A stretch of DNA of 64,000 nucleotides, from the NCBI RefSeq assembly GCF_013340845.1, contig NZ_AP020335.1, positions 372,001 through 436,000 on the forward strand, written 5' to 3'. Source of the stretch: Hydrogenovibrio marinus (GTDB taxonomy: Bacteria > Pseudomonadota > Gammaproteobacteria > Thiomicrospirales > Thiomicrospiraceae). The notes beneath the pieces were generated by a model. That model saw only the letters and a list, made by a program, of their open reading frames with translations, did no database searches and was not told the DNA's origin. Position numbers and translations under genes: made by a program. Shown here piece after piece: positions 43,726 to 57,896 of the stretch. The first letter of the stretch is position 1. The number at the start of each line of letters is the position of its first letter.

Positions 43726-44262
43726 ATGAATAAAATCATTGTTTTGGATCGTGATGGTGTTATCAATCAGGATTCGGACGCCTATATCAAACACCCGAAT
43801 GAATGGATTCCCGAATCAGGTAGTGTTGAAGCCATTGCAAAGCTGAAAAAAGCAGGGTGGACAGTTGCTATTGCCACCAACCAATCCGGTGTACGACGAG
43901 GATATTATTCCCGTCAGACGTTGCATGCAATGCATCAAAAATTCGTTGGACTGCTAGCCGAGCATGGTGTTGCAGTTGATTGGATTAGCTACTCGCCTTA
44001 TGTGTCTGAAGATAACTCTCCTTGTCGAAAGCCTGGTACAGGAATGCTACAAGCCATACAAAATCGCTTCGATGTGTCTTTGGCCGGATGCCCGATGATT
44101 GGCGATTCAATTGCCGATATTCAAGTCGCTCAGGCAATGAACATGCAACCACTATTGGTTAAAACCGGCAAGGGCGAACGAACGATGGCAAAAAATGCGT
44201 CTGAATTGTCTGATGTACCGGTTTACGACAATCTTTTGACGGCTGTGGAGAGTTTGTTATGA
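43726..44262 (+). CDS. gmhB: GmhB-type HAD phosphatase (heptose 1,7-bisphosphate phosphatase) lacking the zinc motif
   Basis: HAD-family phosphatase expected to remove the 7-phosphate of manno-heptose 1,7-bisphosphate in LPS core synthesis. 178 aa. Catalytic Asp pair D8, D10 (VLDRDGVIN), second motif TNQSG and C-terminal MIGDSIADIQ are intact. The structural zinc ligands C-x-H...C-x-C of E. coli and Pseudomonas GmhB are replaced here by S90, Y92, S98 and C100. Neighbours glyQS and plsC match the Pseudomonas PA0005-PA0009 order, supporting orthology. Overlaps the acyltransferase by 4 bases. Confidence 0.88.
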   Translation: MNKIIVLDRDGVINQDSDAYIKHPNEWIPESGSVEAIAKLKKAGWTVAIATNQSGVRRGYYSRQTLHAMHQKFVGLLAEHGVAVDWISYSPYVSEDNSPCRKPGTGMLQAIQNRFDVSLAGCPMIGDSIADIQVAQAMNMQPLLVKTGKGERTMAKNASELSDVPVYDNLLTAVESLL

Positions 44263-44993
44263 AGTTTTTGACAGCAATAAGATCGATCATATTTTTTACA
44301 GGACAAATTATTACACTGATTTTTTTTGTGACGACTGCTCAGGTTTTATGGGTTGCATCACCCTCTGCACGCTATGCGTACATTCACCTATGGGCGCGTT
44401 TTACGATTCGTTGGTTGAAGTGGACTTGTGGGGTGAAGTATCAGGTCTACGGGCGCGAAAATCTGGATGTATCCCAACCTGGCGTAATCCTTGCTAAACA
44501 TGAGTCGGCATGGGAGACTTTTGCGTTTCAGGAGTTTTTTCCTCGCCAAACCTTTGTATTAAAACAAGAATTATTGAAAATTCCTTTTTTTGGATGGGGT
44601 TTAAGGATGATGGGGCCGATTGCGATTGATCGTAAAGCTGGCCGAAAATCGATGATGCAAGTCATTAATCAAGGGAATGAAAAGCTTGCAGAGGGTGTTT
44701 GGGTCGTAATTTTTCCGGAAGGTACCCGAACATCATATGGAAAGATAGGCAAAATCAATACGGGCGGGGCAATCCTTGCCAATCGATCAAAAGCCAAAAC
44801 CTATTTTGTTTCGCATAATGCAGGACAATGTTGGCCTTCAGGCAGTTTGCTTATCCATCCGGGGATGATAGATGTTTACATCAGTCCATCGATTGATCCA
44901 ACGGCATTTTCAGTTGAAGAAATCAACCAACAACTAGAGGATTGGTTTAGAACGCACCTACCGTCCCCTCCCGAAGAGAGTGGAGGTGCTTAA
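44259..44993 (+). CDS. Lysophospholipid (1-acyl-glycerol-3-phosphate) acyltransferase family protein
   Basis: PlsC-family membrane acyltransferase, 244 aa, with an N-terminal membrane segment (about 8-33). The active-site box is HESAWE (H81...E86), the HX4E variant seen in the Pseudomonas PA0005-type branch rather than HX4D; the second motif FPEGTR is at 152-157. It likely acylates lysophosphatidic acid or remodels lipids. ATGA overlap with gmhB. A copy of the dispersed repeat lies inside the coding sequence (44473-44483). The next gene begins 12 bases later. Confidence 0.88.
   Translation: MKFLTAIRSIIFFTGQIITLIFFVTTAQVLWVASPSARYAYIHLWARFTIRWLKWTCGVKYQVYGRENLDVSQPGVILAKHESAWETFAFQEFFPRQTFVLKQELLKIPFFGWGLRMMGPIAIDRKAGRKSMMQVINQGNEKLAEGVWVVIFPEGTRTSYGKIGKINTGGAILANRSKAKTYFVSHNAGQCWPSGSLLIHPGMIDVYISPSIDPTAFSVEEINQQLEDWFRTHLPSPPEESGGA
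44473..44483 (+). repeat. Dispersed repeat core (copy 5) inside the acyltransferase gene
   Basis: CCCAACCTGGC, the 11-bp core on the + strand, here coding part of the Val-Ser-Gln-Pro-Gly stretch before the HX4E motif. Confidence 0.55.
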
Positions 44994-45005
44994 AACCTAC
45001 AATAA

Positions 45006-45833
45006 ATGAGCAAATTAGCGAGCATCATCGGATTAATTCTGGGTTTAGTTGTCGTCCTGTTCAATATGGTCGATTTTAAATCAGGTCAATTGCTATCCGC
45101 GTTCTTTAATTTGCAGGCTTTATTGGTGGTTTTGGGCGGTACATTCGCTGCCGCTTTCATAAATTATCCTTTGAATCAGATAGCCTGTTTCTTCAAAGGT
45201 ATCGGTAAAGTGCTTGTTGCCGAGCCGGAGTCGGAATCAAAAATCATCGAACAACTCATGTATCTATCTCATCTAGCCTATACCAAGGGAGAATTGGCCT
45301 TGGAAAAAGAGATAGAGAATCAGTCAGACCGATTCCTGACGTTTGCTTTGACAGAAATGATGATTTATCGTGATGAAGAACATCTACGATTAAGTCTTGA
45401 GAATCACCTTAACTCCATGCGCATGCGCCATTTGAATTGCCAGGATGTCTTTAACAATATGGCTTCCTATGCGCCAGCATTCGGTATGATGGGGACGGTA
45501 ATGGGGTTGATTATGATGATGACTTCACAGGTCGGTGGAGGCGATGCTGCCAATGTGGTTGGGCAGTCTGAAAACATGTTGAACTCGCTGTTGACCGGGA
45601 TGGGGTTGGCGTTGGTGACAACTTTCTATGGGGTGCTGTTCGCAAATTTTATTTTCATTCCAATGGCAGGGAAGCTAAAAGTGCTCTCCGATGCAGAAGT
45701 GGTAAAAGATGAAATCATTATCTACGGTGTGATGGGGCTGAAACAGAAACTGCCACCATTGATGATGAAAGAAAGTCTACTTTCCTACGTTAATCACAAA
45801 ACCAAGCAGAAGCTAGATTTAGAGCTTCATTAG
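45006..45833 (+). CDS. MotA/PomA-like proton-channel subunit of an accessory stator
   Basis: Inner-membrane stator-type channel protein, 275 aa with four membrane segments (about 5-24, 36-55, 158-180, 192-215). The pore region SYAPAFGMMGTVMGLIMMM and the following FIPMAGKL keep the two Pro positions of MotA/PomA, and charged residues lie in the cytoplasmic loop (RDEEHLRLSLE). It differs from the canonical MotA at 56276, so it is a paralogue. No close ribosome-binding site: the only GGAGGT is 18 bases upstream, inside the preceding gene. Likely operon with the next two genes. Confidence 0.88.
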   Translation: MSKLASIIGLILGLVVVLFNMVDFKSGQLLSAFFNLQALLVVLGGTFAAAFINYPLNQIACFFKGIGKVLVAEPESESKIIEQLMYLSHLAYTKGELALEKEIENQSDRFLTFALTEMMIYRDEEHLRLSLENHLNSMRMRHLNCQDVFNNMASYAPAFGMMGTVMGLIMMMTSQVGGGDAANVVGQSENMLNSLLTGMGLALVTTFYGVLFANFIFIPMAGKLKVLSDAEVVKDEIIIYGVMGLKQKLPPLMMKESLLSYVNHKTKQKLDLELH

Positions 45834-45849
45834 AGGCCAAGGAGAAACC

Positions 45850-46596
45850 ATGAAGCGTATGCTCCTTAATCAGTCCAAACAAGAAGCGGAAGTCGAAGCG
45901 AGCGGCTTTTTACAGCTTAAGCGCTATCGTTCGTCTCAAATTATTTTCATCGCGCTGTTTACCTCTCTATTAGCATTGTTTGTCATTATTATCGCCATAG
46001 TCGGTATCGAAACCAGTCAGGAAAAACGCAGCTATCAAAAAGTCATCAATGCACTCTACCGAGATGTAAAAACGCAAGCTCAGAAAGATGGAATGAGCTG
46101 GTTGGAGGTTGATAATACGGTTGCAAAAGGTGTCAAACTTACCTTCAAACCTGAGCTCTTTGAGAAGAATCAGCTTTTCGCAGCTGCTCGTGCAAAAATA
46201 AACCCTTTATATTTACCCTATTTGAACCAATTGATTCAATTGCTGAAACAAGTGGGTTTTGAAAATTACGCTCAAACGCATAAATCTTTGGTTAAGGCTA
46301 TTCAGATTGAGAATGGCGATGAGTTGATCATGACGCTTCGTGTAGAAGGCCATACTGATGCAGGCACTTTGGCAAAAACCGCTTTATATCAGAGCAATAT
46401 TGAGCTTAGTGGCTTCAGGGCTTACGCCATTATGAATTACATTCAGCTCTATAGTCAGATTCCCGGAGATCGATTTGGTATTGCCGGTTACGGCAGCTTG
46501 CGACCTATTTCCAGTAATTCTATGGATCCCATTAATCGTCGTGTTGAAATCTATCTGTTGCCTCAAATCATCACCAGGCCAGAGGAGCAGTCATGA
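45850..46596 (+). CDS. OmpA-domain membrane protein, MotB-like but without the channel Asp
   Basis: 248 aa: short cytoplasmic tail (1-30), one membrane segment (31-53), then a periplasmic region ending in an OmpA-like peptidoglycan-binding domain (about 150-240; EGHTDAG, NIELSGFRAYAI, GYGSLRP, NRRVEIY). The membrane segment has no acidic residue, so it cannot carry protons like MotB. It follows the MotA-like gene by 16 bases and overlaps the next OmpA/MotB-like gene by 4 (ATGA). Role inferred: partner or anchor in a stator-like complex. Confidence 0.82.
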   Translation: MKRMLLNQSKQEAEVEASGFLQLKRYRSSQIIFIALFTSLLALFVIIIAIVGIETSQEKRSYQKVINALYRDVKTQAQKDGMSWLEVDNTVAKGVKLTFKPELFEKNQLFAAARAKINPLYLPYLNQLIQLLKQVGFENYAQTHKSLVKAIQIENGDELIMTLRVEGHTDAGTLAKTALYQSNIELSGFRAYAIMNYIQLYSQIPGDRFGIAGYGSLRPISSNSMDPINRRVEIYLLPQIITRPEEQS

Positions 46597-47279
46597 GTGT
46601 TAAATCCGAAAAGATCAAGTCAGGTTGGCTTTTGTCTTTTGGCGATATGGTCACGCTTTTGATTACGTTTTTTATTTTGATGATTGTGTTGAACAAAGGT
46701 GAAATTTCAAAAGTTCAGAAATGGCTGGAAGATGACTTAGATCAGATATCTATTGAGTTGACGGATAGATTGAAAGATGCCATTTTCATCAAGGTAAAAA
46801 GAACTTCGCTGGGGGTGGAGATTAATATTAATAACGACCAAGCTTTTGTAGAAGGAGGATTTAAACCATCCGAGAGACTGGCAAAAGAGTTAACAGAAGT
46901 GGGAGAAGAATTGAAAAAAGTTCCATTGTTGACTGAAGAGCAATCGAAAGTCCTGCCTGCTGGTATTGCTTATGATGCAGGAAAACAAGGGTTGCATTTA
47001 CGGCGGGAAATCTCCATTGCCGGTTATACTGATAATGCAAAAATCAATCCGGAATCAAGTCTAAGAAATAACTGGTTCTTAAGTACCATGAGGGCGGAAA
47101 GTGTAATGCAGCTTCTGTCCACTTCGAGTGGGTTGCCGCAGGATTTATTCGGGATTGCAGGTTATGGTATGTATCGTCCGATTGCCTCAAATGACACCTT
47201 GAACGGTCGTGCCAAAAACCGCCGGGTGAAAATTGTCATCACGGCTAACTTCACACATCAAGAGAAGTTGGAAAAGTAA
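46593..47279 (+). CDS. MotB-like stator subunit with conserved channel Asp
   Basis: 228 aa. Membrane segment at about 12-33 contains D18 in SFGDMVTLLITFFILM, equivalent to the proton-binding Asp of MotB. The periplasmic part ends in an OmpA-like domain (about 115-220; AGYTDNAKINPESSLRNNW, STMRAESVMQLL, GYGMYRP, NRRVKIVI). Together with the two preceding genes it forms a three-gene stator-like cassette. It overlaps the previous gene by 4 bases and converges on the chemoreceptor gene with a 13-base gap. Confidence 0.87.
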   Translation: MSVKSEKIKSGWLLSFGDMVTLLITFFILMIVLNKGEISKVQKWLEDDLDQISIELTDRLKDAIFIKVKRTSLGVEININNDQAFVEGGFKPSERLAKELTEVGEELKKVPLLTEEQSKVLPAGIAYDAGKQGLHLRREISIAGYTDNAKINPESSLRNNWFLSTMRAESVMQLLSTSSGLPQDLFGIAGYGMYRPIASNDTLNGRAKNRRVKIVITANFTHQEKLEK

Positions 47280-47292
47280 CTGCTATGCTAAT

Positions 47293-49122
47293 TTAGTCTT
47301 TGTGCGGTAGCGCATAATTGCCTTTGTGAGAGGTTACTCCCTTTACTTGAAACCCAGACACATCCTGTTGAAGTTTTATAGCCTGCTCTGTCAGATGAGA
47401 CGCGTTGGCGGCAGTTTCTTCAACCAATGCTGCATTTTGTTGAACAGCACTGTCTAATTGCGAAATAGCTTGGTTTACTTGACCGATACCTGTTGCCTGC
47501 TCTCTAGCGCTGACGGTGATTTCAGCTACAATTTCGGTTACAGTTTGCACACCGTGATTGATTTTGTCGAAAGCTTCGTTGGTTTCATTAAGTTGCGAAG
47601 CCCCTTGATTTACTTTTGCGACAACTTCATCTATGAGCTTTCTAATGTCATTGGCGGCATCCGAAGATTTTCCGGCGAGGCTTCGGACTTCACCGGCAAC
47701 AACCGCAAAGCCTCGACCATGCTCTCCGGCACGAGCAGCTTCAACCGCCGCGTTAAGTGCCAATAGGTTTGTTTGGAAAGCTATGCTGTCAATCAGTGCA
47801 ATGATGTCACTGATGCGTTCACTGGACTCTTGAATGCGAGACATCGACTCAACGGAATTTTGCATAACCTGACGACCATCATTGGCAAGTTTCATGGTTT
47901 CCGTAGCCAATTGGTGTGCGCGTTGGGCGTGATCGGAAGTCTGTTGTACCGTAGAAGTGATTTGCTCGACAGCCGATGCAGTTTCCTCTAAAGAGGCTGC
48001 TTGCGATTGTGTTCTTTCCGATAGGTTGTCGTTGCCTTGAGAGATTTCAAATGTCCCTTGCGCGACTTCTGACGAGGTACTGATGACCTGTGTCATAGAG
48101 TCATTCAGTTGACTCACTGCATGCTGCAGGTTGTCCTGCAAAGCTTTCAAGTCACCACTGAATGTTCTGGTCATACTGTAGGCAAGATCACCTTGGCTCA
48201 GGTGTTTGGTTGCAGTGTTCAGTTCCTGAATACTTTGGGATATTTCGGAAACCGCTTCATTGATGAAGGACTTGAGTTCTGCCATTTGTCCTTTTGCTTC
48301 GCCTGTAACACGTTCACTAAAGTCTGAGACCATTACCTTTTGCATCACGCCGTTGATTTGTTGAATGATGGTATCCATGTTCTGCATGGCAGTGTCGATT
48401 TTAATGCGGATATTGCCTTTGACTTCAGGGTTCATGCGTATGGAGAAGTCACCATTAGAAATCGCATCTCCAATATCTTCCAAAGAATTCATGGTGACAT
48501 GTACACTATCAACAGATGCGTTTACTCGGTTTTTCAAGGTTTCAAGATCCCCGTGAACATTCACTGTACAGCGTTGTTCAAAGTTACCATTTGCTACTTG
48601 TTCTAGATTACTGTTGATGCGATCGAATACGTTTTTTAGGTCGCCTGTCAGTCCATTGAAACAGCGAATGACCTGTCCAACTTCGTCCTGATATTTGGCA
48701 TTCAAAACCTTTGAGAAGTCATTGGTGGAGGTGATTTCCAAAATGCCTTTTTCCATTTCTTTGATTGGTCTGACGATTTTTCCAATAAGCGTGTTATACA
48801 TCAAAATGAAAAAAGCACCGACAGCAACGAGCACAGCAATGATGAAGTAAATGGTCATAGACTTTACGCCCTCAATGCTATGAGAAAGTTGGTCACTGTG
48901 TGCTTGAAGGTTCGATGTCTTTAATGCACCAGTGTCAGACAGAATTTTCTGGATGGTCAACCAGTCCTTTAATGCTCGATCTAGTTGAATGTGGAGAACA
49001 CTAAAGGCGGTGGTGAAAAAGACACCTGCACCGGCCATCATGACAAGTAAGATGATACTCAAGGTTGATATTTTTGCCCGGCTCCATAAGCCAGCTTTTT
49101 GGATTTCGATGTTGTTGTCCAT
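47293..49122 (-). CDS. Methyl-accepting chemotaxis protein
   Basis: Chemoreceptor, 609 aa. Two membrane segments (about 19-40 and 90-110) enclose a periplasmic part of only ~50 residues, too short for a standard ligand-binding domain. A HAMP domain (about 111-165) and further HAMP-like repeats (to about 330) lead to the signalling domain with the hairpin tip around [20 protein letters not shown]. No NWETF-type CheR-binding tail is present. Downstream of it on the opposite strand is the accessory stator cassette. Confidence 0.94.
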
Positions 49123-56275: not shown

Positions 56276-57121
56276 ATGAATATTATTTCAAAACCTTTAG
56301 CCATACTGATTATTATCGGAAGTTTCATTGGCGGTTTCCTCATGGAAGGGGGCGTGCTTTCTTCGTTATGGCACCCTTCTGAGTTGGTCATTATCCTTGG
56401 GATTGCATTTGGTGTGTTCCTTGCAGCGACACCTGTCTATGTCTGGGGTAAGACGATGGTTTACTTGGGGCGCTTTTTCAAAGGTGGCCGCGTCAATAAA
56501 AAGATATATGTTGAGCTATTGGGCTTACTGGATGAATTGTCCCGTTTGGCTCGTGCGCAAGGGGTTCTTGCGTTGGAGGCTCACATCACTTCACCTGAGG
56601 ACAGTTCAATCTTTATGAACTATCCACTGATTCTTAAGCATAGAGAGCTTAAGAAATTTATCGTCGATAACTTTTCTTACCTATTGTTGAACCCACCACA
56701 AGCGTTGGATTTCAAACATTATTTAGAAGATCAGATTCACGATATCATTCATTCTATGATGGAAGTGCCGCGCGCGACCGGTAAGATTTCCGGGTTACTG
56801 CCTGGTTTCGGGATCGTGGCTGCGGTAATGGGCGTTATCCTGACAATGAATTTGTTGGGTGGTGACATGGATGTGGCAAAAATTGGTAGCTCAATCGGTG
56901 CCGCTCTTGTAGGGACTTTGACGGGTATCTTTTTCTCATTTGCTGTTGTTGCGCCCTTTACGCATGCAACAGAAGTGATGATTCGTCAGGATCAGGCAAT
57001 TTTTGAAGTGGCGGCGGCTTTCCTTTATGCGTTCTCTCATGGGGTATCGCCTAGTATGGCCGCAGAGATTGGTAGACAACGTATTCCGCCAGATTTTGAA
57101 ATTAAGCGCGATGGTCCTTAA
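56276..57121 (+). CDS. motA: Flagellar motor stator protein MotA
   Basis: Proton-channel subunit of the flagellar stator, 281 aa, four membrane segments. The pore region KISGLLPGFGIVAAVMGVILTM and the downstream VVAPFTHATE contain the two functional Pro residues; the cytoplasmic loop carries the charged residues that touch FliG. Its upstream gap holds two TAAAGTTG sequences reminiscent of the sigma28 -35 box but no good -10. Operon with motB (22 bases). Confidence 0.95.
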   Translation: MNIISKPLAILIIIGSFIGGFLMEGGVLSSLWHPSELVIILGIAFGVFLAATPVYVWGKTMVYLGRFFKGGRVNKKIYVELLGLLDELSRLARAQGVLALEAHITSPEDSSIFMNYPLILKHRELKKFIVDNFSYLLLNPPQALDFKHYLEDQIHDIIHSMMEVPRATGKISGLLPGFGIVAAVMGVILTMNLLGGDMDVAKIGSSIGAALVGTLTGIFFSFAVVAPFTHATEVMIRQDQAIFEVAAAFLYAFSHGVSPSMAAEIGRQRIPPDFEIKRDGP

Positions 57122-57143
57122 ATTGTGATTATGAGGCGTCGAG

Positions 57144-57896
57144 ATGAGTGGATCCAGAATGTCAAAAGGTAGAGGCAATCATTGCGAACAAGAAGACAGT
57201 GCATGGGAAATTGCACTTGCCGACTTGATGACCGTTTTAATGGTGTTCTTTTTGGTCATGTGGCTGACCTCTATTATTGATCCTGAAAAACGAAAAGCCT
57301 TTGTTGAGAACCTTGTTGGTGAAAGTGGCGGGGGAGATAAGGTTTTAAAACAGGATGTCACTGCACAGACAGCGCCTATCAAACCACCAATTGAGCAAGA
57401 AAAGCCCGTCACAGAACAAGAAGTTAAGAATGCAGTTGCCAAAGTCAATCCAAAAGATATCGACATTGAGCAAACGCCAGAAGGTATCAAAATTACTTTG
57501 AGATCGGATAGCTTCTTTGAAAGTGGGCGTGCCAATATTACTGACAAAACTAGAGAACAGTTGGAAAATCTGGGTGAAACCCTTGCAGGGCGCAAACAGG
57601 ATATGACCATCACCGGTTATACCGATAATGTACCGATTTCTAACTTCCAATTCCCTTCAAACTGGGAATTGTCGGCAGCTAGGGCGGCAACTGTTGCCAG
57701 AACCTTTATCTATATGGGAGTAGAGCAAAAATACATCACCATTGAAGGTAAAGCGGATAATGAACCTGTTGCGCCGAATAACAGTTCTTATGGACGTTCG
57801 TTGAACCGCCGAGTGGTTATCATGATCAAGAACAAGAAAGTGGCTCAGCCTCCTCGACCGGTAGCCGGACAAGTAGCACCGCCAACTTCACGCTAA
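57144..57896 (+). CDS. motB: Flagellar motor stator protein MotB
   Basis: Peptidoglycan-anchoring stator subunit, 250 aa. The proton-binding Asp is D27 in ALADLMTVLMVFFLVMWL. A plug/linker region follows, then the OmpA-like domain (about 95-235) with TGYTDNVPISN, NWELSAARAATVAR and NRRVVIMI. Start ATG 57144 has GAGG 7 bases upstream; ATG 57159 is an alternative. Its stop lies 1 base from the convergent moeB stop. Confidence 0.96.
   Translation: MSGSRMSKGRGNHCEQEDSAWEIALADLMTVLMVFFLVMWLTSIIDPEKRKAFVENLVGESGGGDKVLKQDVTAQTAPIKPPIEQEKPVTEQEVKNAVAKVNPKDIDIEQTPEGIKITLRSDSFFESGRANITDKTREQLENLGETLAGRKQDMTITGYTDNVPISNFQFPSNWELSAARAATVARTFIYMGVEQKYITIEGKADNEPVAPNNSSYGRSLNRRVVIMIKNKKVAQPPRPVAGQVAPPTSR

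Follow-up and report, generated by a model that had tools for sequence, protein, structure and literature searches.

The three-gene cassette A–B1–B2 combines one MotA-type subunit with two unlike MotB-like proteins, and, as judged from the sequences, the chances stand about even that it encodes a MotAB-type rotary stator with a B1:B2 heterodimer carrying one ion-binding Asp; the pairing of the two B proteins and the flagellar role are what we infer. The cassette lies in the window—the whole stretch of DNA analysed, 64,000 nucleotides long—and its host is a sulfur-oxidising bacterium. It is no local accident: strong matches to the A profile (at least 309 bits) and to the B1 profile (at least 222 bits) are confined to one and the same set of 45 among the 62 family genomes, and the combination of a B2 with Asp and a B1 without it is kept in 43 of these 45, which together goes beyond chance.

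Gene A (45006..45833, + strand) encodes a protein of 275 aa, a four-helix stator protein of the MotA/PomA/MotP type that matches PF01618 at 4.1e-21 (75.5 bits against a cut-off of 22.9). The NCBIfam MotP, MotA, and PomA models score 126–147 bits on it, each under its equivalog cut-off, the best being MotP at 147 bits (cut-off 394), and MotA and PomA chains of the PDB are matched with E values down to 1e-33. In the PDB alignments, the periplasmic loop TM3–TM4 of A is approximately 14 residues longer than that of PomA; the B plugs of known stators sit where this loop faces. B1 (45850..46596, + strand; 248 aa) follows after a gap of 16 bases and is a MotB-like protein in which Ala35 replaces the channel Asp; its membrane helix, residues 29–51 as taken from the conservation tables, is encoded at 45934..46002 on the + strand. 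B2 (46593..47279, + strand; 228 aa) is MotB-like and keeps the channel Asp, D18. The stop of B1 and the start of B2 share the bases ATGA at 46593..46596 (+ strand), as given by the ORF coordinates, and because of this overlap translational coupling of B1 and B2 is likely. The layout of the preliminary description, with its 16-base gap and its overlap, is thus borne out by the coordinates.

Both B proteins are single-pass and feature an OmpA domain: PF00691 is matched at 1.6e-8 by B1 (35.2 bits) and at 8.4e-10 by B2 (39.3 bits), the cut-off being 27.2. OmpA is the sole family above cut-off in B1, while B2 also matches MotB_plug (3.3e-9); B1 yields no MotB_plug match at E≤1. OmpA-type domains are, hence, present in both proteins, and peptidoglycan binding is predicted for both from sequence. 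With A in PF01618 and an OmpA domain on each B, the earlier reading as a stator-type cassette with two unlike B proteins stands. The monomer models have a mean pLDDT of 85.6 (B1) and 85.2 (B2), and their best PDB matches include the periplasmic domains of MotS, MotB, and PomB. In both models, a near-continuous helix leads out of the membrane and forms a short stalk in the periplasm, with the first strand at residue 85 in B1 and at residue 66 in B2.

The window holds a second stator-type locus, a motA1–motB pair at 56276..57896 (+ strand) that is separate from the cassette and serves for comparison. It had been described as an ordinary motA–motB pair and proves to be MotA1-type: the best NCBIfam model is TIGR03818 MotA1 at 246 bits, below the cut-off of 304. 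The source genome of 2.49 Mb, in which the window spans G000:C1:372001-436000, encodes six MotA_ExbB proteins: the A of the cassette, three from other stator-type pairs (at 56276 of the window and at 1.56 Mb and 1.88 Mb of the genome), and two whose length and neighbours suggest the TolQ/ExbB type. The pair at 1.56 Mb (L005), again a motA–motB pair of the MotA1 type, immediately follows a chemoreceptor-like gene, identified by sequence, and lies approximately 6 kb from fliG.

The two B proteins differ at the channel site. D18 of B2 lies within WLLSFGDMVTLLITFF and is part of the motif W12-x3-F16-G-D18-x2-T21-x4-F26-F27, whereas the membrane segment of B1, SQIIFIALFTSLLALFVIIIAIVG, contains no acidic residue. 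The helices align without gaps, with A35 of B1 opposite D18 of B2, in agreement with what had first been noticed about the channel Asp. The helix of B1 nevertheless keeps the MotB register, W-x3-F-x-(site)-x2-T-x4-F-F, from which the copy in the window deviates with S29 and L43; the Trp is kept in 41 of the 45 family genomes. A comparison of the B1 and B2 profiles gives an E value of 9.5e-36 over 220 columns. Across the 45 genomes, the channel site of B2 is Asp without exception (45/45), and that of B1 is Ala in 17, Ser in 15, Gly in 10, Thr in one, and Asp in two, a count that includes a 210-residue piece from a genome with an interrupted frame (G045). In that genome (L131), the B1 frame is broken, leaving the 210-residue ORF and, apart from it, a fragment of the C-terminus, with A and B2 adjoining. 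Since the channel Asp occurs in two of 45 sequences only, B1 on its own is not classed as a MotB.

The site in B1 is a small residue in 43 of 45 genomes, and small residues recur at 38/39, 42, and 49. This stripe through 35, 38/39, 42, and 49 is what a packed helix would be expected to show, more so than a helix that only anchors the protein. Residues 33–44 are the most conserved stretch of B1 measured, with an entropy of 0.67 bits compared with 1.38 for the OmpA domain; over the full helix, B1 is less conserved than B2 (1.10 vs 0.60 bits). The signature of the OmpA domain is also retained: N183, L186, S187, R190, N229, R230, and R231 are invariant in 30 of 30 sequences. Loss of the ion site with retention of these residues would suit a B1 that acts as a separate accessory wall anchor outside the pore, similar in role to MotX/MotY or MotE/MotK. 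Such a role is very improbable: a hydrophobic helix would suffice for it, yet the MotB helix pattern is strongly conserved instead, the Asp site stays small, and the Asp has returned once.

If the cassette is a rotary stator with paired B1 and B2, it would form an additional unit of the 5:2 type, in which five copies of A surround a B1:B2 axle. Asp18 of B2 would be the sole ion-binding site, and B1 would fill the second axle position by contributing a small residue at the site and a second peptidoglycan anchor. One turn of the A ring would be expected to cost about 5 ions instead of 10, and the rotor driven would be the flagellar one. In the 5:2 motor models, the B dimer is taken to be symmetric, with two equivalent ion sites; if real, a one-site dimer conserved in nature would put to the test whether both ion sites are needed and would bear on step size and ion cost. 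The heterodimer is favoured because of the joint inheritance of A and B1, the gene order and overlap, the conservation of residues 33–44, the small-residue stripe, and the regained Asp; the invariant E100 of A and the flagellar neighbours of comparable trios outside the family also count in favour of a stator. The reading as a heteromeric stator is weakened because the contact between B1 and B2 is one that we infer, because the family loci tested have none of FliL, FliM, and FlgE nearby and no evident sigma-28-like box upstream of A, and because the genome has three other stator-type pairs; it is weakened further since Lys94 of A is kept in 28 of 44 sequences only and since the whole helix of B1 is less conserved than that of B2. 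The stricter version—an obligate B1:B2 stator with a single ion site, conserved throughout the family and needing roughly half as many ions per turn, with comparable trios elsewhere and one two-site lineage—is held more tentatively and falls somewhat short of an even chance.

The same helix register and wall-binding domain in a protein without an ion site would also fit a brake. B2 homodimers would then build an ordinary A5(B2)2 motor, Asp-less A5(B1)2 or mixed units would take up motor or wall positions as non-driving units, and the dosage of B1 would act as brake or throttle. E. coli MotB mutants with Asp changed to Asn act as dominant negatives, which lends this arrangement a precedent. It is nonetheless rather unlikely, as the ATGA coupling suggests nearly equal dosage of B1 and B2 and as the Asp regained in one lineage would convert the brake into a drive.

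This regain concerns two genomes, G019 and G026, the only ones of the 45 with an Asp in B1. Their B1 proteins are 92% identical to each other, and their motif, FADVFTALLTFF, resembles the canonical MotB helix. Both nest within Asp-less relatives: their sister G038 lacks the Asp, as does genus g2, the deepest B1 branch in both trees. The Asp was, as read from this nesting, probably regained once. Such a regain makes most sense if the B1 site would lie in the ion path, and the lineage offers a natural two-site control for the idea of a one-site dimer. In both genomes (L030 and L029), the residues around the B1 Asp are also shifted toward the standard MotB motif. Gene conversion from B2 was considered as the source of the Asp and is not claimed, since the B1 codons differ enough from those of B2.

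Within the family, the order A–B1–B2 is found in 29 of the first 30 loci, the exception being a contig that ends after B1 (L020), and the 4-base overlap of B1 and B2 in 23 of 29 measured loci, that of the window included. Each of the 45 family genomes with B1 also has A (45/45); B1 homologues that are widespread in the absence of a MotA partner, which had been named as an observation that would count against the cassette, are thus not what the family presents. The B1 of the window is 94% identical to that of Hydrogenovibrio sp. JE_KL2. Full-length B1 occurs in three of the 369 genomes of the class sample, all three from the window's family. In the other 17 of the 62 family genomes, the profile search finds no B1, B2-profile matches above 60 bits are absent, and the A profile reaches at most 131 bits, similar to PomA-like proteins elsewhere in the family. 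Eleven of these 17 genomes reach 90% completeness or more with no more than 5% contamination; since several of the rest are drafts with a completeness of 79–86%, some absences may be assembly gaps. The gene plsC is found in 14 of the 17, and in seven of the 14 it is directly followed by ung (L153–L156) or by a chemoreceptor (L147, L149, and L152); the cassette, therefore, came or went there as one unit. The remaining seven plsC loci are cut off, have other genes downstream, or contain different acyltransferases.

In the window, the cassette directly follows the co-directional genes gmhB (from 43726) and a plsC-type acyltransferase (from 44259), which together span 43726..44993 on the + strand, and a chemoreceptor gene at 47293-49122, named by sequence alone, converges on it downstream of B2. 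Among the neighbours identified by sequence and family matches across the loci are glyQS, gmhB, plsC, the chemoreceptor, ung, and pdxH. In every family locus outside genus g2 that reaches that far, plsC is directly upstream of A, mostly in the order glyQ–glyS–gmhB–plsC, and in many loci ung is downstream of the cassette. The gmhB–plsC neighbourhood is not seen around the cassette in g2 (G017 and G024), where the cassette sits elsewhere, and a chemoreceptor adjoins the cassette in 15 of 45 genomes, a count in which some contigs end before that point. Both neighbours, hence, say little on function. The layout first described is correct, but its weight as a sign of function is reduced, and linkage to the chemoreceptor is dropped as functional evidence.

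The position behind gmhB–plsC leads to a further reading, in which the cassette is a non-flagellar envelope motor of the Tol/Ton/Agl kind and its location is functional. The regular presence of plsC upstream of A outside g2 points this way, as does the absence of FliL, FliM, and FlgE near the cassette in all 46 family loci tested (0/46; the window lies outside that set). The cassette is also not required for having flagella, because 16 of the 17 cassette-less family genomes keep FliG and because the source genome has three other stator pairs. An envelope motor is, however, on the unlikely side: A groups with MotA/PomA/MotP, B1 and B2 have MotB-type OmpA domains and not TolR/ExbD folds, the cassette of g2 is at a different place, and comparable trios outside the family adjoin flagellar genes. 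The two readings partly overlap, as an envelope motor could itself be heteromeric.

A FliG search has a match in 61 of the 62 family genomes, and the sole genome without one, G015, also lacks the cassette, which speaks for a flagellar rather than an envelope role; four cassette genomes (G020, G027, G076, and G087), all drafts, however, show weak FliG matches only, and co-occurrence is a test of low power here. Outside the window, at G000:C1:479581-480349, two tandem frames of approximately 160 aa give weak FliG_C matches, and similar weak matches occur in many family genomes. A sigma-28 promoter upstream of A was tried as a sign of flagellar control and rejected: the best scores against the consensus lie at 9–12 among 43 relatives and at 11 for the window, at the level of a background with a mean of 10.4, a 95% point of 12, and a maximum of 13. 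In the rotor-facing loop of A, E100 is Glu in 44 of 44 sequences and K94 is Lys in 28 of 44; by alignment with PomA, these correspond to E96 and K89, its charged residues that face the rotor. Thr164 and Thr206 of A are present in 44 of 44 sequences, and since both are largely common to other MotA chains aligned, they give no indication of H+ or Na+ as the coupling ion.

Compared with MotAB, PomAB, and MotPS, the cassette shares the A family, the single-pass B with an OmpA domain, the Asp (in B2), and the periplasmic folds of B. It differs by its two unlike B genes, one of them Asp-less, by the longer TM3–TM4 loop of A, and by its position in the family away from FliL, FliM, and FlgE. The nearest known arrangements are motA–motB1–motB2 of Aquifex aeolicus (PMC4525482) and AglR–AglQ–AglS of Myxococcus (PMC9389320). 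Like the cassette, the Aquifex operon places two motB genes behind a single motA. The membrane and N-terminal regions of MotB1 and MotB2 are 97% identical there, and each MotB, when joined to the periplasmic portion of its E. coli counterpart, gives some motility with MotA (PMC4525482); in the cassette, the membrane helices are unlike and B1 has lost the Asp. AglRQS likewise has one A and two B-type subunits. In the stator review, two MotB Asp residues are described, AglQ and AglS are both said to have the conserved Asp along with wall-binding domains resembling TolR, and their pairing as hetero- or homodimers is given as not yet settled (PMC9389320). The B proteins of the cassette differ from AglRQS, ExbBD, and TolQR in being OmpA-type with MotS/MotB/PomB folds and in having no TolR/ExbD-type domain. 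The two-B arrangement as such is known from Aquifex and AglRQS; among the open-licence PMC papers searched, none was found to describe an Asp-less second MotB.

Zorya ZorAB shares the MotAB-derived fold. A defence role had been called less likely, and it is rejected here: no PADLOC model matches A at E≤1, the NCBIfam ZorA models reach 18 and 14 bits on A (cut-offs 500 and 100), A with its 275 aa has no long tail, and the neighbours are housekeeping genes. PADLOC ZorB models score 41 and 63 bits on the two B proteins of the cassette, matches that are not specific, as the ordinary MotB of the window scores 68 bits. No effector of the ZorC/D/E type is found among the neighbours identified by sequence and family matches.

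Beyond the family, samples of the class (369 genomes) and of the phylum were screened with the A profile. One of the 27 nearest class loci (L164–L190) is an A–B′–B trio; three of the 27 (L166, L183, and L185) and L215 of the phylum set are not cleanly readable. The trio belongs to another family of the same class (L165, G181), its first B has Ser at the Asp site (MFVSLFMILLAFF), and its second B has Asp. This first B occurs in one of the three genomes of that family, and no other of the 369 class genomes has it within a trio in a single-sequence query at E≤1e-12, a query that could miss distant forms and whose other matches were not each inspected in context. In the phylum sample, 19 of the best 27 new loci are trios; altogether, trios are present in at least 29 genomes that belong to the phylum but not to the class (families f207, f227, and f240), including one whose contig ends before the second B (G585). 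In the 12 outside-class trios placed in the tree, the site of the first B is occupied by Glu in nine and by Gln in three, and the second B has Asp in all (12/12). These first B proteins are Asp-replaced but not necessarily without an ion site: since Glu can carry a proton, those with Glu may still carry an ion, and such trios are no clean parallels.

Flagellar genes adjoin the trio in all 20 loci fetched with flanks (19 from outside the class and that of G181): FliL and FliM are downstream in 17, and a FlgE-like gene is upstream in three whose contigs end early, where Pfam bears out FliL and FliM at L256 and L265 and FlgE is named by sequence only. None of the 16 non-trio loci of the same set has FliL, FliM, or FlgE as a neighbour. 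The three-gene order is present within the family and in trios outside the class, and of the unusual motor design first proposed, the Asp-less B is real, but the architecture is not unique to the genus, given the replaced-Asp trios beside flagellar genes outside the class. In trios, the gene right after motA is the Asp-less or Asp-replaced B, which calls for caution in taking that gene as the B partner; a recent stator phylogeny treated whichever gene immediately follows A as B, with a manual check afterwards (PMC12505986).

In a quick tree, B1 and B2 of the family are sisters, with the pairs of other lineages elsewhere. The independent origin of trios hinted at by this tree is not upheld: a tree constrained to unite all first B proteins passes the AU test (p-AU 0.61) and even has a better likelihood than the unconstrained search. 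The A subunits of the trios as one group are not rejected either (p-AU 0.33), and because both joined groupings survive, the trees do not separate one origin from several.

The phylum set also contains loci of other composition. Two of them (L239 of G459, f215, and L241 of G476, f211) consist of a MotA-like protein, a single MotB-like OmpA protein, and then a gene of approximately 198 aa; by eye, this B has Thr (L239) or Gly (L241) at the channel site, and no Asp-bearing B is beside it. A third (L243 of G566, f234) features a MotA-like protein with two OmpA-like single-pass proteins of 190 and 242 aa in which no channel Asp is evident by eye. A fourth (L268 of G434, f208) has motA and two motB genes, both with the Asp and with identical helix motifs, and resembles the Aquifex arrangement.
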